From: Pseudonocardia benzenivorans CB1190
GTDB lineage: Bacteria; Actinomycetota; Actinomycetes; Mycobacteriales; Pseudonocardiaceae
DNA length: 64,000 bases
Direction of reading: 5' to 3'
NCBI RefSeq assembly: GCF_000196675.2
Contig: NC_015312.1
Span: 6,588,501-6,652,500 of the forward strand
The position numbers and the translations under genes are program-made. Below the pieces are notes generated by a model. It was given only the letters and a program-made list of their open reading frames with translations, was not told where the DNA came from and made no database searches. Shown piece after piece: positions 10,491 through 23,958 of this stretch. The number at the start of each line of letters is the position of its first letter. Position 1 is the stretch's first letter.

Positions 10491-11504
10491 ATGGACGCGT
10501 TGCGACGGCGGACCCGGCGGATGTTCGCGTTCCGCAAGGCCGTTCTCGCGCTCGACACCGACCCGGCACGGCTCAACCGCCGGTTCAGCGCGGTCGGTGC
10601 CGAGTCCGGTCCCACCGGTGCGGCCGCCTACCGGGACATGGTGCTCGGCTCCCCCGACCTGTCGACGACGGCCAGCGCCGTCGTCCTGCCGCCGGAGGCG
10701 TTCGGCGCCGCCGCCGCGACGTCCGACCGGCTCGGCACCGCTCCGGCGGCCACGGGCGCCCGCAGCCGCGGTCTGCTCGATCGGCTCCGCGCGGCCGGGG
10801 TGCTGGTCGGGGTGCGGGCCGACACCGGGGCGGAGCCGCTGTCGTCGGACCGCGAGGAACGCATCACCTCCGGGCTCGACGGGCTGGCCGACCGGCTGCG
10901 CCGGCTGCAGGCGCTCGGCGCGACGTTCGCGGTGTGGAGCATGTCGTCGGGCTCGGCGATCGACTACGGCGCGCTGCGGACGTTGACCGTCAACAGCCAG
11001 GCCGCCGCGCGCTTCGCCTACACCTGCCAGACCGTCGGTGTCGTGCCCGTCGTCCGCGTCGGTACCCGGATGCGCGACGGCACACCGGCGCAGCGCAGCG
11101 CCGCCCGTGCGGCCGCGCTGCTCAGCGTCTGCGGCCACCTCGAGGACATCGAGGTCGATCTGCCGTCCGTCGTCATCAGCACCGAGGCCGAGTACGTCGC
11201 CGGCACCGACCCCGTCACCGGAGGGCCGCTCGTCGCGCTCCCCGGTCGGCTCGGTGGCGTCGCGCTCACCGCGGGCGACGCGTCGCTGCACACCGCGGCC
11301 GCCGCGGTCGGGGCCGTCCGGGAGGCCGACCCGCCGTGGCCGGTCACGTTCTACCTCGGCCGCGAGGTGACGCGTCCGGCCCTGTTGGCGTGGCGCGGAC
11401 GCGGCGGCTCCGTCCGCGCCGGGCAGCAGGCGCTGCGCGACGGGCTCGCCACCGCCTGCTCCTCGCTGGGCGCCCGGCCGCTCGCCGCGGTCCCCGGCTC
11501 CTAG
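10491..11504 (+). CDS. Class I fructose-bisphosphate aldolase homologue lacking catalytic residues (1)
   Basis: 337 residues, co-linear with the real class I aldolase of this window (21331-22356). Aligned by eye, the N-terminal Asp33-equivalent remains (LALDTDP) and the C-terminal phosphate site remains (PPWPVTFYLGRE, against PWPLTFSFGRA). The catalytic positions are changed: KVDAGAKPL is VRADTGAEPL, the FAKW lysine is valine (FAVW), the VEPE glutamate is arginine, and the Schiff-base lysine of VLKPNMV is replaced (VISTEAEYV). It cannot form the aldolase imine, so a regulatory, scaffolding or sugar-phosphate-binding role is likelier. The ATG at 10491 has GGAGG nine bases upstream. Carbamate kinase follows on the same strand. 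Confidence 0.75.
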   Translation: MDALRRRTRRMFAFRKAVLALDTDPARLNRRFSAVGAESGPTGAAAYRDMVLGSPDLSTTASAVVLPPEAFGAAAATSDRLGTAPAATGARSRGLLDRLRAAGVLVGVRADTGAEPLSSDREERITSGLDGLADRLRRLQALGATFAVWSMSSGSAIDYGALRTLTVNSQAAARFAYTCQTVGVVPVVRVGTRMRDGTPAQRSAARAAALLSVCGHLEDIEVDLPSVVISTEAEYVAGTDPVTGGPLVALPGRLGGVALTAGDASLHTAAAAVGAVREADPPWPVTFYLGREVTRPALLAWRGRGGSVRAGQQALRDGLATACSSLGARPLAAVPGS

Positions 11505-11505
11505 G

Positions 11506-11578
11506 GACCGCTCGTGTGGTCCGGCTCGTGAGGACCGCTCGTGGGTCCCCGGCTCCCGGGGACCGCGCGTGTGGTCCA
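11506..11578. repeat. Three tandem short dyads (GGACC...GGTCC)
   Basis: Just after the aldolase-like stop codon are three hairpin-forming units: 11506-11523, 11533-11549 and 11561-11578. Each is GGACC, a GCTCGTGT-like core, then GGTCC, and they repeat every 27-28 bases. They could act as a terminator or RNA-processing array between the aldolase-like gene and carbamate kinase, or be a genomic REP-type element. Confidence 0.65.
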
Positions 11579-11715
11579 CGCAACATCCCTGCAACGACGC
11601 AGGCCACTCTGCATCTCAACGACCCCGTACGCCAGGGCCGGCTCGACCCGAGCCGGGAATGCCGGACCGACCGGGCCACGCCCGGCACGCCGGTCACGGA
11701 GGAAGAAGGAACCGC

Positions 11716-12693
11716 ATGTCGAGGACCGCAGTCGTCGCCCTCGGGGGGAACGCGTTCACCCGCGAGGACCAGCAGGGCACGTTCGCCGAGCTCGCGGAGA
11801 ACGCCCGCGCCATGGCCGAGACGGTGCACGCGCTGCGCCGCGCGGGCTGGAACGTCGTGATCGTGCACGGCAACGGCCCGCAGGTCGGCAACCTCGCCAT
11901 CCAGCAGGAGGAGGGCGCGTCCGTCGTCCCGGCACTGCCGCTGTCCGCCCTCGGCGCCATGACGCAGGGCCAGCTCGGCAGCCTGATCTCGATCTCGCTG
12001 CGGCAGACGGCCCGGGCGGGCGAGGACATCGACGTCGCGACGATCGTCACGCACGTCGCCGTCGCCTCCGACGACCCCGCGTTCGACGACCCGCGCAAGC
12101 CCATCGGCCCGTTCTTCCACGGTGACGCCGTCACCGAGGCGGTCGAGACCCGCGGCTGGACGATGGTCGAGGACTCCGGCCGCGGCCACCGCCGCGTCGT
12201 CCCCTCCCCGAAGCCGCAGGCGATCCTCGAGGCGGCGTCGATCCGCACGCTCGCCGACGCCGGTGTCGTCGTCGTCGCGGCGGGTGGCGGCGGCGTCCCC
12301 GTCGTCGACGAGGGGAACGGGCTCGCCGGGGTCGACGCGGTCATCGACAAGGACTACGCGGCCCAGCAGCTCGCCAACCAGCTCGGTGCCGACGCGCTCG
12401 TCCTCGTCACCGGTGTCACGAACGTGATGGTCGACTTCGGCAGGCCGACGCAGCGCGCCCTCGACGAGATCGGGGTCGACGAGGTCGAGCGCCACCTCGC
12501 CGACGGCCAGTTCCCGGAGGGTTCGATGGGCCCGAAGGTGCGCGCCGGTATCGCGTTCCTGCGCAACGGCGGCTCGACCGTCGTCGTCACCACCCCGGAG
12601 TTCGCGGCCACCGCACTGGCCGACGACGAGAGCTCCCGGATCGGCACCCGCATCGTCGCCGACATCGTCGGGGCACCGGCGGCCGAAGCCTGA
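11716..12693 (+). CDS. arcC: Carbamate kinase (copy 1)
   Basis: Interconverts carbamoyl phosphate plus ADP with carbamate plus ATP. It is 325 residues with the amino-acid-kinase motifs VVALGGNAFTRED, VIVHGNGPQVGNLAIQQ, VVVVAAGGGGVPVVDEG, DAVIDKDYAAQQLA and FPEGSMGPKVRAGIAFL. The ATG at 11716 has GGAGGAAGAAGGA upstream. The protein closely resembles the second copy at 56520-57497, which sits with fdrA. This one stands alone among Calvin-cycle genes and aldolase-like pseudoenzymes, so its carbamoyl donor is unclear. It could make ATP from carbamoyl phosphate or capture carbamate. Confidence 0.93.
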   Translation: MSRTAVVALGGNAFTREDQQGTFAELAENARAMAETVHALRRAGWNVVIVHGNGPQVGNLAIQQEEGASVVPALPLSALGAMTQGQLGSLISISLRQTARAGEDIDVATIVTHVAVASDDPAFDDPRKPIGPFFHGDAVTEAVETRGWTMVEDSGRGHRRVVPSPKPQAILEAASIRTLADAGVVVVAAGGGGVPVVDEGNGLAGVDAVIDKDYAAQQLANQLGADALVLVTGVTNVMVDFGRPTQRALDEIGVDEVERHLADGQFPEGSMGPKVRAGIAFLRNGGSTVVVTTPEFAATALADDESSRIGTRIVADIVGAPAAEA

Positions 12694-12727
12694 TCCGTTT
12701 TACATCGCAGTAACTCGGCAGAAACAA

Positions 12728-12765
12728 AAGGAGGGGCCCGCGCAATTCGCGCGGGCCCCGTCCTT
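12728..12765. terminator. Bidirectional terminator between arcC and the six-TM gene
   Basis: GGGGCCCGCGC at 12733-12743 pairs perfectly with 12749-12759 around AATTC. The flanks AAGGA (12728-12732) and TCCTT (12761-12765) extend the stem. It lies between two convergent genes. Confidence 0.85.
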
Positions 12766-12778
12766 ACCGCTCAACCGA

Positions 12779-13342
12779 TCACGGAATGGCGGTGCCGGTG
12801 GCGAGGAAGACCACGGGCAGGAAGAACGTGTAGAGGGCGGTGAGGAGCAGGATTCCGCCGAGGGCCTTGGCGCCGAGCTTGCCGTACACGGTCGCGGCGA
12901 CCGCCAGGAACGCGACGACCCACACGACGAGGATGGAGCGGAACAGCCAGCCGCCCTGGAAGGGAGCGAAGTTCCACCAGAAGAGCGGAACGATGCCGAC
13001 GGGGATCGCCAGGTTGGCGATGGGGCGCAGGTCGAGACCGAGGAAGGCCGCGGTACCGACCGAGGTGAAGAACAGGCCGTAGAAGCCGACGAGGCCGCCG
13101 AGCAGCACGGGGACCGAACCGCCGCCGCCGCCGGCAGCACCGAGGTCGGCCGAGGTCCGCTGGGTGACGATGTAGACGGCCGAGATGAGGTCGACGACGC
13201 CGGCTGCGATGGCGATCGCACCCACGGTCTTGAGCGGGTTCGAGCCCGAGTCGTCCGCCTTTGCGCCCCAGCCGAGGAAGAAGCTGGAGATGACAAAGAG
13301 CGCACAGCCGGTCACGGTGAATACGAGAACGATGGGCGGCAT
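12779..13342 (-). CDS. Six-TM membrane protein, possibly AmiS/UreI-like channel
   Basis: 187 residues with six predicted membrane segments: residues about 3-28, 39-63, 82-108, 113-130, 137-158 and 163-183. A glycine-rich loop lies between segments 2 and 3. The length, six-helix layout and segments such as IVPLFWWNFAPFQGGWLF recall AmiS/UreI amide/urea channels, but I cannot confirm the family. The ATG at 13342 is preceded by GAAGGGGAGGCC. A promoter lies upstream at 13410-13415. It diverges from the second aldolase-like gene and converges on carbamate kinase; if it is an amide channel, that neighbourhood makes sense. Confidence 0.6.
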   Translation of the reverse strand: MPPIVLVFTVTGCALFVISSFFLGWGAKADDSGSNPLKTVGAIAIAAGVVDLISAVYIVTQRTSADLGAAGGGGGSVPVLLGGLVGFYGLFFTSVGTAAFLGLDLRPIANLAIPVGIVPLFWWNFAPFQGGWLFRSILVVWVVAFLAVAATVYGKLGAKALGGILLLTALYTFFLPVVFLATGTAIP

Positions 13343-13409
13343 GGCCTCCCCTTCGGTGCGAGGTGTCCTGAACGTTCGCTGAACGTGTCGGATCGTAAAC
13401 GCGAGCCGT

Positions 13410-13438
13410 ACTATAGTCCACAATTGCAACTTTGCGTT
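13410..13438 (-). promoter_or_regulatory. Probable promoter of the six-TM gene
   Basis: Reading leftward, a TATAGT -10 box lies at 13415-13410, in an AT-rich stretch (TTGCAATTGTGGAC) unlike the GC-rich surroundings. The 8-bp ACTATAGT palindrome here recurs upstream of arcC copy 2. The -35 is weak. Confidence 0.45.
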
Positions 13439-13581
13439 ACTGAACCGTGACGGGTCTCCGAGAACCCGAAGATCGGCCGGACAACCTCTCGCATCCGCCT
13501 CGTTGTCCGCAATTCCACGGTCGTGTGGTGATCCGGATCATGTCCTCACCACACGTGTTCAACACCTTCCGGGAGGCCCAG

Positions 13582-14547
13582 ATGGGTGACGTCTTCACAC
13601 CGCCAGGACCAGCGCCGGCTCCGACGCGTGGCCTGCTCGCGCTCGATCAGCCCGACTCGAATCTCGCCGAATTGTTCCGTGCCGGGAGCGTTCCGATCTC
13701 GACCTCGACCGCGGCCACATTCCGCGACGTCGTCCTCACGACGCCCGGGCTCGACCGAGCGGTGGGCGGGGTGCTCGTCGATCCCGTGACGTTGCACGGG
13801 TCGGGCGCGTCGCGAACTGCACTGCGCCGCAACCGAATTCCGATCGGGGTACGGATGGGCGACGGCACTCGCCGCGGCCACGACATCGCCGGATCCGTCG
13901 ACGACCTGGACGACGAGATCGCCCGGCACGTCGCGGCGGGCGCGAGCTTCGCGCGCTGGCAGGTCGTCGTCTCCGGCGCGGGGGCGCCGACCGAGCTGCG
14001 GGCCACGGCACGGCTGGTGGCGGGGTGGTCCGCGGTGTGCCTCGGCCGCGGTCTGGTCCCGTTCGTCGACGTCGTCGTGCGACCGGGGTCGCGCGACGAC
14101 CTCGCGACGGTCGGGTCGGTGCACACCGCGGCGGTCTCGACCGTGCTCGACGCCGTGCGGGTCACCGGCGTCGACACCGCGCGGATCGTGCTCGGCTGCA
14201 CCCTCGTCGCACCCGGCGACCGGCACGTCGCGACCGCCGACGACATCGCTCGCGCGACGCTGGGCAGCCTGCGCGGCGCGGCCGCGGTCCCGCTCGCCTG
14301 CGTCGTGTTCACCCCGGCCGGCCGCCCCGACCGGCTGACGGCGCACCTCGCCGCGACGACCTGGCTGAACCCGCCGTGGCCCATCGGGTTCTGTCTCGGC
14401 CGCAGCACGCTGGTGCACGTCGCCCGGACCTGGGCCGGCCGGCCCGACCGCGTCGCCGCGGCGCGCTCGGAGCTGCTCGGCAGGCTCGGGACACCCACCG
14501 CGGTCGGGCGGGCCGCCCGGACCGAGATCACCCGCCGGGCGGGCTGA
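13582..14547 (+). CDS. Class I fructose-bisphosphate aldolase homologue lacking catalytic residues (2)
   Basis: 321 residues, also co-linear with the true class I aldolase. GLLALDQP matches GVLAADES and keeps Asp33. TPGLDRAVGGVLVDP matches TPGLADGVSGIIFCD. PPWPIGFCLGRSTLV keeps the phosphate-binding arginine. The active-site lysines are lost: KVDAGAK is RMGDGTR, FAKW is FARW, the VEPE glutamate is aspartate, and the Schiff-base VLKPNMV is VLGCTLV. The ATG at 13582 has GGGAGG upstream; longer in-frame starts exist to 13447 but lack a ribosome site. It diverges from the six-TM gene and ends at a terminator shared with prk. It is a likely pseudoenzyme paralogue of the 10491-11504 product. Confidence 0.75.
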   Translation: MGDVFTPPGPAPAPTRGLLALDQPDSNLAELFRAGSVPISTSTAATFRDVVLTTPGLDRAVGGVLVDPVTLHGSGASRTALRRNRIPIGVRMGDGTRRGHDIAGSVDDLDDEIARHVAAGASFARWQVVVSGAGAPTELRATARLVAGWSAVCLGRGLVPFVDVVVRPGSRDDLATVGSVHTAAVSTVLDAVRVTGVDTARIVLGCTLVAPGDRHVATADDIARATLGSLRGAAAVPLACVVFTPAGRPDRLTAHLAATTWLNPPWPIGFCLGRSTLVHVARTWAGRPDRVAAARSELLGRLGTPTAVGRAARTEITRRAG

Positions 14548-17762: not shown

Positions 17763-18434
17763 ATGAGTACGCCCACGTCAGGAGGTCCGCTGCGGATCGT
17801 CCTCGTCGACGACCACGAGATGGTGATCGCCGGCCTGAAGGCGATGCTGGCGCCGTTCCGCGGCCGCGTCCGCGTGGTCGGCGAGGCGATCGGGGCCGAC
17901 CAGGCGGTGTCGACGGTCGCGAGCCTGACACCCGACATCGTGCTCTGCGACGTCCGCATGCAGGGCGCCAGCGGTCTCGACCTGTGCCGCACCCTGCGCG
18001 AGCGCGATCCGGAGGCGAAGGTCGTCCTGCTGTCGGTCTACGACGACGAGCAGTACCTCTTCCAGGCCCTGCGAGCCGGCGCCTCGGGCTACCTGCTCAA
18101 GAAGATCAGCGGCGAGGAGCTCGTCCGGCAGCTGGAGCTGGCGCACACCGGCACCACCGTCATCGACGCGTCGCTGGCCGGCCGGGCCGTCGACACCGCG
18201 GCGCGGCTGCAGAGCGACGAGTTCTGGCCCGGCGCCCGGCAGGGCCTCACCCACCGCGAGTCCGAGGTGCTGTCGTTGATGGTCACCGGGCTGTCCAACC
18301 GGGGGATCGCGACCCGCCTCGTCGTCAGCGACGAGACCGTCAAGAGCCACCTGCGTTCGATCTACCGCAAGCTCGGCGTCGGCGACCGGACGGCCGCCGT
18401 CGCGACGGCCCTGCGCGAAGGGATCTTCCAGTGA
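17763..18434 (+). CDS. LuxR/NarL-family response regulator
   Basis: 223 residues. The receiver domain occupies residues 11-125 with the acidic pair in VLVDDHE, phospho-acceptor Asp63 in IVLCDVRMQG and a conserved lysine in YLLKKISGEE. The LuxR HTH is C-terminal (LTHRESEVLSLMVTGLSNRG...DETVKSHLRSIYRKLGV). The ATG at 17763 has AGGAGG-like context. The cognate kinase starts 25 bases downstream. It diverges from tkt-prk, so it may control CO2-fixation genes, but nothing in the sequence proves the target. Confidence 0.9.
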   Translation: MSTPTSGGPLRIVLVDDHEMVIAGLKAMLAPFRGRVRVVGEAIGADQAVSTVASLTPDIVLCDVRMQGASGLDLCRTLRERDPEAKVVLLSVYDDEQYLFQALRAGASGYLLKKISGEELVRQLELAHTGTTVIDASLAGRAVDTAARLQSDEFWPGARQGLTHRESEVLSLMVTGLSNRGIATRLVVSDETVKSHLRSIYRKLGVGDRTAAVATALREGIFQ

Positions 18435-18459
18435 CCGTGCCGGCGAGCGGGCGAGCCCG

Positions 18460-19725
18460 ATGAGCCCGCTCGGCCGCGAGCCCGGGCACGCCCTGCTCAA
18501 CCCCTACGGCGACGGCACGGTCCTGGGCCTGACCTCGCCCGAGCGCGCCAACGCCCTGCTGCTCGGCATCATCGAGGCCGCGTCCAGCGGACCGCACGTC
18601 GAACCGCTGGCGGCGGCCGTCGCGCGGCTGATCACCGACGCCACCGCGACCGACGTCTGCTTCGTCCACGTCCTCGACGACACCGAGCGCTCGCTGACCC
18701 TCGCGGGTGCGACGCCGCCGTTCGACGAGCACGTCGGGGCGATCCACCTGCCGATCGGCTCCGGCGTCGCGGGCTGGGTCGCGAGCCACCGCGAGCCCGC
18801 GGTGATCGTCGAGCACAAGGAGGCGGACCCGCGCTACGTGCCGATCCCGGCGCTGCGCGGCACCGACTACACCTCGATGGCCTCGGTCCCGATGGAGACC
18901 GGACCGTCGGGCCTGGTCGGGGTTCTCAACGTCCACACCGTCCGGCGACGGGAGTTCACCGACCGCGACCTGCAGCTGCTCGGGGTCATCGGGCGGCTCG
19001 TCGCCGGCGCCCTGCACCAGGCCCGGATGCACCGCAAGCTCGAGGCCCGCGAGCGGGCGCACGAGCGTTTCGCCGAGCAGGTCATCGCGGCGCAGGAGGC
19101 CGAGCGCCGGCGCCTCGCGGGCGACATCCACGACGGCATCTCGCAGCGCCTGGTGACGTTGTCGTACCACCTCGACGCCGCCGGCCACAGCATGCAGTCC
19201 GACCCCGGACTCGCCGCCGAGCAGCTCGGGCTGGCCCGGGACCTGGTCGATCTCACTCTCGACGAGGCGCGTGCCGCCATCGGCGGCCTGCGCCCGCCCG
19301 TCCTCGACGACCTCGGGCTCGCCGGTGGGCTCGCCAGCCTCGCGAGGTCGTTGCCCCACTTCGAGATCGAGCTCGAGCTCGACGACGAGCGGCTCCCCGA
19401 GCACGTCGAGATCGCGCTGTACCGGATCGCGCAGGAGTGCCTGCAGAACATCACCAAGCACGCCCGGGCGACGCTGGCACGCGTGCGGTTCCGGGTGCAC
19501 CGCGGCACCGCCTGGCTCGAGGTGATCGACGACGGCGTCGGGTTCGACGTGCCCGGCACACCGCCGGGCAGCAGCGGCTCGGGGGGCTACGGCATGCAGT
19601 CGATGACCGAGCGCGCCGAGCTCGTCGGCGGGAGACTGCGGGTGATCTCCCGGCGCGGCTCGGGGACGACGGTCATCGCCACCGTCCCCCTGTCCTCCCA
19701 GGACGCCGCCACCGACCGCGCCTGA
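18460..19725 (+). CDS. GAF-domain sensor histidine kinase (soluble)
   Basis: 421 residues with no membrane segment. A GAF domain (about 35-185, FVHVLDDTERSLTLAG...LVGVLNVH) is followed by a coiled-coil and a HisKA_3 helix with the phospho-acceptor in AGDIHDGISQRLV (His224). The HATPase follows: ALYRIAQECLQNITKHA (N box), VIDDGVGFD and GGYGMQSMTERAELVGG. The GAF domain suggests a cytoplasmic small-molecule, redox or gas signal, as in DevS/NreB-type kinases; no haem- or FeS-ligand cysteine set is evident. It is paired with the response regulator just upstream. Confidence 0.88.
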   Translation: MSPLGREPGHALLNPYGDGTVLGLTSPERANALLLGIIEAASSGPHVEPLAAAVARLITDATATDVCFVHVLDDTERSLTLAGATPPFDEHVGAIHLPIGSGVAGWVASHREPAVIVEHKEADPRYVPIPALRGTDYTSMASVPMETGPSGLVGVLNVHTVRRREFTDRDLQLLGVIGRLVAGALHQARMHRKLEARERAHERFAEQVIAAQEAERRRLAGDIHDGISQRLVTLSYHLDAAGHSMQSDPGLAAEQLGLARDLVDLTLDEARAAIGGLRPPVLDDLGLAGGLASLARSLPHFEIELELDDERLPEHVEIALYRIAQECLQNITKHARATLARVRFRVHRGTAWLEVIDDGVGFDVPGTPPGSSGSGGYGMQSMTERAELVGGRLRVISRRGSGTTVIATVPLSSQDAATDRA

Positions 19726-19872: not shown

Positions 19873-21226
19873 GGTTCAGGGGGTGGTCGCAACACCGGTG
19901 GTTACTGGCCGCGACAGTAGTCGGGTCAGTCTTTCCCCGGGGGTGTCCCAGTCCAGGGTTTTGCGGGGGCGGGAGTTGAGCTTGTCCGCGACCCGGTCCA
20001 GATCGGCGTGGGTGTGCACGGACAGATCGGTGCTTTTCGGGAAGTACTGGCGCAACAGCCCGTTGGTGTTCTCGTTGCTGCCCCGCTGCCAGGGGCTGTG
20101 TGGGTCGCAGAAATAGACCGGCAACTCCAGCGCCATGGTGATCTCGGCGTGGCGGGCCAGCTCGATGCCCTGGTCCCAGGTCAACGACCGGCGCACCATC
20201 GCGGGCAGCACCCGCATCGCGGCGATCATCGCGTCCCGGACCTGGACTGCGCCGTGGCCCCCGGGCAGGTGCAGCAGCAACACGAACCGGGTGGTCCGCT
20301 CGACCAGCGTGCCGATCGCGGTCTCGTTGCCGGTGCCGAGGATGAGATCGCCTTCCCAGTGCCCGGGCACGGCCCGGTCGGTGACCTCCGCGGGCCGCTG
20401 GGAGATCATGACCTTGTCCCGGATCCGGGTCTGGTTGCGGTGTTGGCGTTGGTCGGGCAGCCGGTTCGGGCGGCGCAACGCCCGCCCGGTCCGGAGACAC
20501 CCCGCGAGCTCGCGGCGCAGCTGCCCGCGGCCTTGGACGTAGAGGGCCTGGTAGACGCCCTGGTAGATGGTTTCGTGGGACACCCACATCTCCGGCCGGT
20601 CGGGGAAGTCTCGGCGCAGAGTCTGACTGATCTGCTCCGGGCTCCACTGCTGCTCGACCAGCCTGGTGTGTACGTGGGCGGCCAGCTCGGGGTGGGTGAG
20701 GAGTTTGGCGGGTGTGCGGCGGCGGGCGCGGGCCTCGGCTTTGGCCTGGGCCACCACCGCCCGGTACCGCAGCCGTTCGTGCTGGGGCCGGTCCCGGCCG
20801 CCGTGCGTGCCCGGGTCTGGCCCCAGGCGGTGCGGGCGCCCGTCAGGCAGCGGGGGCCGGCGTGGATAGCGCACGGTGCGGTTACGGGCCAGTTCCCGGC
20901 CGATGGTGGCGCGGTGGCGGCCCAGCCGCCGGGCGATCTCGGCCCGGCTGTGCCCGGCCGCCCAGCCCACGGCGATCTCTTCACGTTCGGCCAGGGACAG
21001 ATAACGCCCGCCGGGCTCGGTCAGGTCCGGGATCATCCCACCAGACTCGACGACCCACCCCCGCCCGGCCGAGGCCGACACCCCCACCTCCGCGGCGGCC
21101 TGCGCGATCGTGGCCCCCGCCAACCGGGCCCTCCAGAACCGGCGGACCCGTTCCCGCGGCACCCTCGGCGGACCGATCACACTCATCACCCCAGCTCGAC
21201 AGGGTGTTGCGACGAACCCTTGAATC
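19873..21226. mobile_element. IS30-family insertion sequence
   Basis: About 1.35 kb bounded by imperfect 24-base inverted repeats, 19873-19896 and 21203-21226, matching at 20 of 24 positions, including a shared GTCGCAACACC core. It contains one transposase gene on the minus strand whose stop lies inside the left repeat. No clear target duplication is visible; IS30 elements usually make 2-3 bases. Confidence 0.85.
19876..21189 (-). CDS. IS30-family transposase
   Basis: 437 residues, intact. Two N-terminal HTH segments occur (about 25-48 and 63-105; the second, LSLAEREEIAVGWAAGHS then IARRLGRH, is the IS30 type). The DDE core has Asp281 in GHWEGDLILG, Asp339 in LTWDQGIELARH and Glu373 in PWQRGSNENTNGLLRQY. 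It is somewhat longer than classical IS30 (383 residues), as in many actinobacterial members. No frameshift or internal stop is seen, so the element may be active. Confidence 0.95.
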   Translation of the reverse strand: MMSVIGPPRVPRERVRRFWRARLAGATIAQAAAEVGVSASAGRGWVVESGGMIPDLTEPGGRYLSLAEREEIAVGWAAGHSRAEIARRLGRHRATIGRELARNRTVRYPRRPPLPDGRPHRLGPDPGTHGGRDRPQHERLRYRAVVAQAKAEARARRRTPAKLLTHPELAAHVHTRLVEQQWSPEQISQTLRRDFPDRPEMWVSHETIYQGVYQALYVQGRGQLRRELAGCLRTGRALRRPNRLPDQRQHRNQTRIRDKVMISQRPAEVTDRAVPGHWEGDLILGTGNETAIGTLVERTTRFVLLLHLPGGHGAVQVRDAMIAAMRVLPAMVRRSLTWDQGIELARHAEITMALELPVYFCDPHSPWQRGSNENTNGLLRQYFPKSTDLSVHTHADLDRVADKLNSRPRKTLDWDTPGERLTRLLSRPVTTGVATTP

Positions 21227-21330: not shown

Positions 21331-22356
21331 TCAGGCGGGCTGGAGCTCCGCGCGGCGACGCACCGCGGCGGCGTTGGCGGCGACCCGCGCGGCCAGCGCG
21401 TTCTGCCCGTCGACGACCTGCTCGTCCTTGCCCACCCACGCCGCGAGGGCCGGGTCGACCAGCGCGCGGCCGAACGAGAACGTCAGCGGCCACGGGGTGG
21501 CGATGGCCTGCATGGCCTCGAGGTTGGCGGTGGCCCGCTCGGGCGACTGCCCACCTGAGAGGAACGCGACGCCCGCGAGCTCGGCCGGCCACGCGCGCAG
21601 CACCTCGACGGTCGCGGCGGCGACGACCTCGGGCGCGGACGGCACGGAGGTGCCGTTGCCCTCGACGACCATGTTGGGCTTGAGCACGATGCCCCCGAGG
21701 TCGACGCCGAGCAGCGCAAGCTCCTCGCGGACCGCGGCGTGCACGTCGGCGGTGACCTCGGCGCAGCGCTCGATCGAATGGGTGCCGTCCATCAGCACCT
21801 CGGGCTCGACGATCGGCACGATGCCGGCGGCCTGGCAGGCGGCGGCGTACCGGGCCAGCGCGTTGGCGTTGGCCCGGACGGCACCCGCGCTCGGGGTCGC
21901 GTCGGAGATCACGTACACGGCGCGCCACTTGGCGAACGCGGCGCCGATCCCGGCGTACTCGGCGAGCCGGGCGGGCAGCCCGTCGAGCCCCTCGGTGATC
22001 GTCTCGCGCTCGAGACCGCCGGGCAGCGGCTTGGCGCCGGCGTCGACCTTGATCCCGGGCAGGATGCCGAGCGCATGGACGGCCGTCGCGAAGGGTGTCC
22101 CGTCGGCGAAGGTCTGCCGCAGGGTCTCGTCGCAGAAGATGATGCCGGACACGCCGTCGGCCAGCCCGGGCGTGGCCGAGAGCAGCTCCCGGTAGCGGCG
22201 CCGGTTCTCGGCCGTGGCCTCGACGCCTGCCTTCTCCAGGCGCGCCGACATCGTCGCGATGCTCTCGTCCGCGGCGAGTACGCCCTTGCCGGGCGCGACC
22301 ATGCGCTCCGCGATCTGCCTGCACGCGCTCGTCGGTTCGCTCGCGAGCTCACTCAT
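21331..22356 (-). CDS. fba: Class I fructose-bisphosphate aldolase
   Basis: Schiff-base aldolase of 341 residues. It condenses triose phosphates to fructose-1,6-bisphosphate, and also sedoheptulose-1,7-bisphosphate in the Calvin cycle. All class I residues are visible: Asp33-type in GVLAADES, the KVDAGAKPL lysine, FAKW lysine, IVEPE glutamate, Schiff-base lysine in IVLKPNMV, the SGGQS loop and PWPLTFSFGR. The ATG at 22356 has GGGAGG upstream. It diverges from cbbL across 171 bases that hold LysR-type motifs, suggesting joint control by CbbR. Class I aldolase is unusual in bacteria that mostly use class II. Two inactive-looking relatives lie 7-11 kb to the left. Confidence 0.95.
   Translation of the reverse strand: MSELASEPTSACRQIAERMVAPGKGVLAADESIATMSARLEKAGVEATAENRRRYRELLSATPGLADGVSGIIFCDETLRQTFADGTPFATAVHALGILPGIKVDAGAKPLPGGLERETITEGLDGLPARLAEYAGIGAAFAKWRAVYVISDATPSAGAVRANANALARYAAACQAAGIVPIVEPEVLMDGTHSIERCAEVTADVHAAVREELALLGVDLGGIVLKPNMVVEGNGTSVPSAPEVVAAATVEVLRAWPAELAGVAFLSGGQSPERATANLEAMQAIATPWPLTFSFGRALVDPALAAWVGKDEQVVDGQNALAARVAANAAAVRRRAELQPA

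Positions 22357-22444: not shown

Positions 22445-23958
<1,514 letters not shown>

Follow-up and report, generated by a model that had tools for sequence, protein, structure and literature searches.

Genes of the locus

A 64,000-nucleotide stretch of the genome of Pseudonocardia benzenivorans CB1190 (NC_015312.1, positions 6,588,501 to 6,652,500; hereafter, the window) carries two homologues of class I fructose-bisphosphate aldolase, P1 and P2 (Table 1). Class I aldolase is a classic example of an enzyme that works through lysine; judged by sequence and predicted structure, P1 and P2 represent two long-lived families of pseudoenzymes that derive from it and lack its Schiff-base lysine. A search of the 7.44-Mb genome with PF00274 located three class I aldolase loci, all within the window, and the third, an active-type enzyme (hereafter, the active copy), was used as the reference for comparison. 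Read in order, the genes are those for PGK (-), GAPDH (-), a HAD phosphatase (-), P1 (+), a carbamate kinase-like protein (+), a small membrane protein (-), P2 (+), phosphoribulokinase (PRK, -), transketolase (-), a response regulator (+), a GAF histidine kinase (+), an IS30 transposase (-), the active copy (-), the RuBisCO large subunit (rbcL, +), a 141-amino-acid product (+), an AAA protein with a CbbX-type lid (+) and a LysR regulator (+). The neighborhood is a Calvin-cycle locus, in keeping with the initial annotation of this DNA, which had placed both homologues in a CO2-fixation region.

Table 1. Positions in the window of P1, P2 and the genes discussed with them
Feature	Position	Strand	Basis
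P1, pseudo-aldolase family 1, 337 amino acids	10491..11504	+	Open frame, PF00274 match
Carbamate kinase-like gene, between P1 and P2	11716..12693	+	PRK12352, 302.9 bits (cut-off 266)
Small hydrophobic protein, 187 amino acids, between P1 and P2	12779..13342	-	Hydropathy scan
P2, pseudo-aldolase family 2, 321 amino acids, zero lysines	13582..14547	+	Open frame, PF00274 match
PRK, tail-to-tail with P2	14607..15554	-	Family match
Response regulator and GAF histidine kinase pair	17763-19725	+	
IS30-type transposase gene, between histidine kinase and aldolase	19876-21036	-	
Active-type class I fructose-bisphosphate aldolase, comparison reference	21331..22356	-	Catalytic residues; NF033379, 449.1 bits (cut-off 250)
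rbcL, Calvin-cycle locus marker	22528..23958	+	Family match

Sequence and predicted fold of P1 and P2

Both P1 and P2 are open frames that begin with an ATG shortly downstream of a GGAGG. The gene caller skipped P1 in favor of a frame on the opposite strand, and we took the P1 frame as real because it is conserved. At E 0.001 in Pfam, both proteins matched PF00274 alone, with 98.6 bits for P1 and 92.1 for P2 (active copy, 376.7; cut-off, 22.2), which agrees with the initial assignment of both to the class I aldolases. Neither, however, reached the cut-off of NF033379, an equivalog model for proteins of the same function, which was cleared by the active copy (P1, 135.0 bits; P2, 106.7 bits). 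Identity to the active copy was 31% for P1 and 26% for P2.

We mapped the active site by alignment, using the rabbit aldolase numbering and residue roles. The active copy has Asp33, Lys107, Lys146, Arg148, Glu187, Glu189, Lys229, Ser271, Gly272, Ser300 and Arg303. At the same positions P1 has Asp, Arg, Val, Ser, Arg, Gly, Ser, Ala, Gly, Tyr and Arg, and P2 has Asp, Arg, Arg, Gln, Asp, Val, Gly, Pro, Ala, Cys and Arg. The initial claim that Asp33 and the C-terminal segment were kept is borne out by Asp33, Gly302 and Arg303, present in both copies, and the claim that all catalytic lysines were lost holds for positions 107, 146 and 229 and understated the losses, since Glu187 and Glu189 are changed as well. 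At position 229, P2 has its glycine while the serine of P1 lies beside an alignment gap. This gap is immaterial because the sole lysine of P1 (P0001), at residue 16, lines up with a lysine of the active copy that has no catalytic role. Realignment recovered no catalytic lysine in either protein, P2 (P0002) having none at all. On sequence grounds, therefore, P2 cannot carry out lysine Schiff-base chemistry, and for P1 such chemistry is not credible. Lysine poverty in itself was rejected as a signal, as 3 of 29 window genes with products of 250-450 amino acids and a gene-call score >80 also encode no lysine.

Structure prediction, a check proposed in the initial annotation, gave aldolase folds for both proteins, with the predicted barrel extending over their whole length. 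The Asp of the GLDGL motif, a subunit-interface residue, is kept in 60/61 P1 and 11/13 P2 sequences (alignment rows defined below), although the motif is altered in P2. P1 and P2 are thus like class I fructose-bisphosphate aldolase in predicted fold, in Asp33, in the Gly302-Arg303 of the window copies and in the interface Asp, and differ from it in the three lysines, in Glu187 and in their NF033379 scores.

Conservation and selection

A search with P1 returned 62 matches, including the window itself and one active-type protein (P0065); none of the other 60 has a lysine at 107, 146 or 229 wherever the site is covered. The P2 search returned nine matches, one being the window itself, and a profile search returned 12, of which three (P0075-P0077) were new; no P2 row examined has a lysine at these positions. 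Conservation was scored on 61 P1 rows, which retain near-duplicates and omit the active-type P0065, the window's own entry (P0004) and the short or partial P0013, P0063 and P0064, and on 13 P2 rows, which omit P0075-P0077 and include three without the N-terminal part, so that Asp33 is counted in 10. In P1, Arg107, Asp109 and Arg187 are invariant (61/61), arginine thus replacing both Lys107 and Glu187, and Asp33 (60/61), Gly189 (60/61) and Tyr300 (59/61) are nearly so; the invariant substitutions extend to rows that are as little as 44% identical to the window copy. In P2, Arg107, Gly229, Cys300 and Gly302 are invariant (13/13). When 18 pocket columns were compared with random column sets, the pocket proved the better conserved: 501 of 20,000 sets scored as high for P1, a modest result, and 34 of 20,000 for P2, rows being unweighted for kinship. 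The pattern is that of a rebuilt pocket, rather than of a mere loss of constraint.

We also estimated ratios of non-synonymous to synonymous substitution (dN/dS; Nei-Gojobori) for the six pairs among four genomes, that of the window and those of three relatives sharing its gene order. Values were 0.12-0.29 for P1, 0.27-0.53 for P2, 0.24-0.32 for active aldolase, 0.14-0.29 for PRK and 0.05-0.10 for rbcL. Constraint on P1 thus resembles that on its neighbors, and P2 is looser, chiefly on the window's branch. Since dN/dS was <1 in every pair across these four genomes and the pocket substitutions are fixed, the view in the initial annotation that these are conserved, selected pseudoenzymes rather than a decayed gene is upheld. 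That P1 and P2 are decaying, functionless duplicates of aldolase would fit the fast evolution of P2 and the state of one draft genome (G077, 78% complete), in which P1 is in three pieces and P2 is spread over two contig ends. Nevertheless, the frames are open in 7/8 genomes with P1 and 8/9 with P2, and in light of this, the dN/dS values and the invariance of the P1 pocket, we give the idea almost no credence.

A rebuilt pocket might instead indicate new enzymes, catalyzing a reaction that does not use a Schiff base, such as the isomerization or hydrolysis of a sugar phosphate. Invariant charged residues lie in the pocket, the pocket columns outdo random ones, and the residues (Asp33, Arg107, Asp109 and Arg187 in P1; Arg107, Arg146 and Cys300 in P2) belong to genes located mostly among those of metabolic enzymes. 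However, we recognized no known catalytic constellation among them, and the P2 pocket varies by sub-lineage: position 146 is Arg in 11 rows, Ala in one and Cys in one, and Arg303 is lost in 2/13. A new catalytic function seems unlikely to us, if well worth keeping in mind.

Origin of the families

A 92-row tree resolved P1 as one clade (support 100/99) and P2 as another (98/81). The initial annotation had argued for two different losses of the catalytic lysines; yet P1 and P2 together occupied one side of the branch that separates them from active enzymes (95/73, long branches being present), which a single loss before duplication would fit too. Judging from the tree, their origin may lie in one loss followed by duplication or in two losses. 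Two other kinds of copy without Lys229 occur in the genus. One, found near rbcL in G007 and G011, still has Lys146 but carries Arg at 229 (L070 237-1166; L071 9778-10719), and this type is a separate line of loss. In G001 and G070, a third kind of pseudo-aldolase has Arg107 and Ser229 (L060 9743-12021; L062 9476-11056); it faces a P2-like piece on the opposite strand and, in G001 (L060), adjoins transketolase. In the tree, both types fall outside the P1 and P2 families. Their existence suggests that aldolase chemistry was lost more than once in Pseudonocardia. The P1 family may have expanded as well, because two differing P1-type proteins (P0029, P0030) are both attributed to Pseudonocardia sp. 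GCM10023141.

Gene arrangement in other Pseudonocardia

P. sulfidoxydans (G022), N23 (G078) and SCN 73-27 (G075) have the same order as the window from GAPDH through HAD phosphatase, P1, kinase, membrane protein, P2 and PRK to transketolase, without the IS30 gene. These four genomes, window included, are the ones with carbamate kinase-like and membrane genes between P1 and P2. In P. asaccharolytica (G019), 73-21 (G076) and RYN_179 (G082), P2 follows P1 directly on the same strand with gaps of at most ~40 bases, and in P. asaccharolytica the two overlap by four bases (ATGA). In G077, the pieces of P1 are followed by the start of P2 at the beginning of one contig, and the end of P2 adjoins PRK at the end of another. 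Because P1 and P2 are adjacent without the kinase and membrane genes in these four other genomes, it looks as if the P1-P2 pair is the unit and the intervening genes are a later insertion in one subgroup. P2 lies tail-to-tail with PRK in 7/9 genomes that have it (the window and six others). One of the two exceptions is G062, where P2 lies between a gene for a GlpX-type fructose bisphosphatase and a PRK gene ~4 kb away.

Distribution in the genus and the order

Genomes were scored as rbcL-positive when they had a PF00016 match at E 1e-130 or better, with RuBisCO forms pooled and weaker RuBisCO-like matches uncounted; 28 of 62 Pseudonocardia genomes qualified. Presence of P1 and P2 was called at gaps in the scores (P1 ≥383 bits, with the next score at 228; P2 ≥373 bits, with the next at 187), G077 being counted from its pieces. 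P1 was found in eight and P2 in nine of the 62 genomes, all rbcL-positive. The co-occurrence with RuBisCO that the initial annotation proposed to check was thus observed, with P1 and/or P2 in 9/28 rbcL-positive versus 0/34 other genomes (Fisher p 3.4e-4, kinship ignored), or 11/28 versus 0/34 when the third type of G001 and G070 is added. Beyond the genus, no P1 other than the window's was found among 397 genomes of the order, with just three Pseudonocardia among those listed and the five best first-look candidates scored in each: 32 genomes matched, the window's P1 alone exceeded 225 bits, and the rest scored 146-225 bits, within the range of active copies. Eleven plasmid records had identities of at most 34% and, where annotated, were annotated as aldolases. 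Homologues of P1 and P2 that are named by their source are mostly called fructose-bisphosphate aldolase; therefore, pathway reconstructions may count enzymes unable to work as such.

In two distant species, pseudo-aldolase genes adjoin a cluster for hydrogenase maturation (L057 1-7970; L058 42-7204). By Pfam, the L057 cluster encodes HypF, HypC, SIS, HypE-like, HypD and DUF6390 proteins; HypD and DUF6390 were matched in L058, where the gene sizes agree. Such a cluster lies next to the pair in P. asaccharolytica and next to a distant homologue in G062, which had suggested hydrogenase as the true partner; this found no support across genomes, as hypD occurs in 6/9 genomes with P1 or P2 and in 26/53 without (p 0.48).

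Possible function of the P1-P2 pair

P1 and P2 are encoded as a pair, usually next to Calvin-cycle genes. The interpretation we favor, which we are about as ready to believe as to doubt, is that they form a two-subunit, phosphate-binding pseudo-aldolase that acts on the Calvin cycle, perhaps through PRK or aldolase. This is an inference, as are the sugar-bisphosphate binding and the regulation of Calvin enzymes proposed in the initial annotation. By sequence and predicted structure, P1 and P2 retain the barrel, most of a subunit-interface motif and an arginine-containing pocket, with the Schiff-base lysine gone. P1 and P2 would associate as a hetero-oligomer, this oligomer would bind a phosphorylated Calvin-cycle intermediate, and its bound or unbound state would tune a Calvin-cycle enzyme, with PRK or the active aldolase as first candidates.

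Several observations weigh against such a role. The pair of P. asaccharolytica abuts the hydrogenase maturation cluster instead of PRK, and G062 has P2 while lacking P1 at the family level. Neither gene is present in 19/28 rbcL-positive genomes, so the Calvin cycle manages without them there, and the co-occurrence test takes no account of kinship. With dN/dS up to 0.53, P2 evolves fast and at a rate unlike that of P1, which is a poor fit to a tightly co-evolving complex. Finally, P1 varies in its 271-273 loop (where the commonest residue occupies 21-38% of rows) and retains Arg303 in just 44/61 rows, so that aldolase-like binding of a bisphosphate by P1 is doubtful.

CP12 regulates PRK and GAPDH in cyanobacteria and plants. 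It is an unrelated small protein (PF02672), and the likeness of the P1-P2 pair to it would lie in the proposed role alone, i.e., tuning of the Calvin cycle at PRK. The known PRK regulator was unseen in Pseudonocardia, as PF02672 matched 0/62 genomes while a Synechococcus control was positive. That the pair might be a dedicated Calvin-cycle regulator of Pseudonocardia, a metabolite sensor which would bind a sugar phosphate or 3-phosphoglycerate via its new arginines and gate PRK in place of CP12, strikes us as decidedly improbable.

Catalytically dead paralogues of active enzymes offer another comparison. The AdoMetDC prozyme is reportedly a dead paralogue that activates a live one, and the pyridoxal phosphate synthase to which PDX1.2 belongs is likewise a lysine-dependent barrel. 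PDX1.2 of Arabidopsis is a non-catalytic pseudo-subunit of that synthase, its key active-site residues lost and its gene kept (PMC6829848), and the deoxyhypusine synthase of trypanosomatids is reported to have a dead paralogue that activates the live one (PMC3663545). P1 and P2 resemble PDX1.2 in being non-catalytic paralogues of active enzymes whose genes are retained; they differ in enzyme and pathway, and PDX1.2 has a known partner, whereas P1 and P2 are two paired dead families. They differ from the AdoMetDC and, as reported, deoxyhypusine synthase cases, which they resemble as dead paralogues, in that neither member of the pair is live. By analogy with these precedents, P1 and P2 could be prozyme-like subunits that enter mixed tetramers with active aldolase and activate, stabilize or redirect it (e.g., toward sedoheptulose bisphosphate). 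The predicted fold is the same, the interface Asp is mostly kept, and a PF00274 match at the level of the active copy (at least 363 bits) is present in 7/9 genomes with P1 or P2. However, the low identities to the active copy, the altered GLDGL motif of P2 and the ~7 kb between the pair and the aldolase gene in the window argue against mixed tetramers, as do the many genomes with active-level copies and no P1 or P2. Moreover, no active-level aldolase was found in the assemblies of G082 (98% complete) and G077 (78%) despite the presence of both P1 and P2. We regard mixed tetramers as unlikely.

According to PMC12999727, autotrophic growth on hydrogen has been reported for a species of Pseudonocardia. 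A search of open-access papers on aldolase pseudoenzymes and on the Calvin cycle or autotrophy in Pseudonocardia listed no earlier account of such proteins, absence there being weak evidence. A conserved dead-aldolase pair tied to autotrophy would be, within that literature, the first described for class I aldolase, and it would point to an unrecognized layer of Calvin-cycle control in a genus where CP12 was not found.

Other genes of the locus

The initial annotation had P1 and P2 flank a carbamate kinase and a six-transmembrane protein. Both genes are there, with ~five hydrophobic stretches in the membrane protein by a simple hydropathy scan, which makes six transmembrane segments plausible, but they are not constant partners, being absent between the pair in the four genomes with P1 and P2 adjacent. 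The kinase-like product, which passes the PRK12352 cut-off, scored 346.2 bits with TIGR00746, slightly below the cut-off of 358.25. Pfam and NCBIfam searches gave no match for the 187-amino-acid hydrophobic protein. An AmiS/UreI channel was rejected as its identity: the window and P. sulfidoxydans copies had no Pfam match up to E 10, and that of N23 had one weak, unrelated match only (EcsC, E 0.54). The membrane protein occurs in 6/62 Pseudonocardia genomes, and in G013 and G077 no P1 or P2 lies in the surrounding 16-17 kb.

Between the histidine kinase and the aldolase, the IS30 gene is probably a recent insertion into the Calvin locus, because the same gap is just ~250 bases in the G075 relative (locus L054). 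Of 20 loci compared, 10 have the pair of response regulator and GAF histidine kinase genes, surrounded by Calvin genes. These two rank with the better conserved genes here, and the pair is possibly a sensor for the locus.

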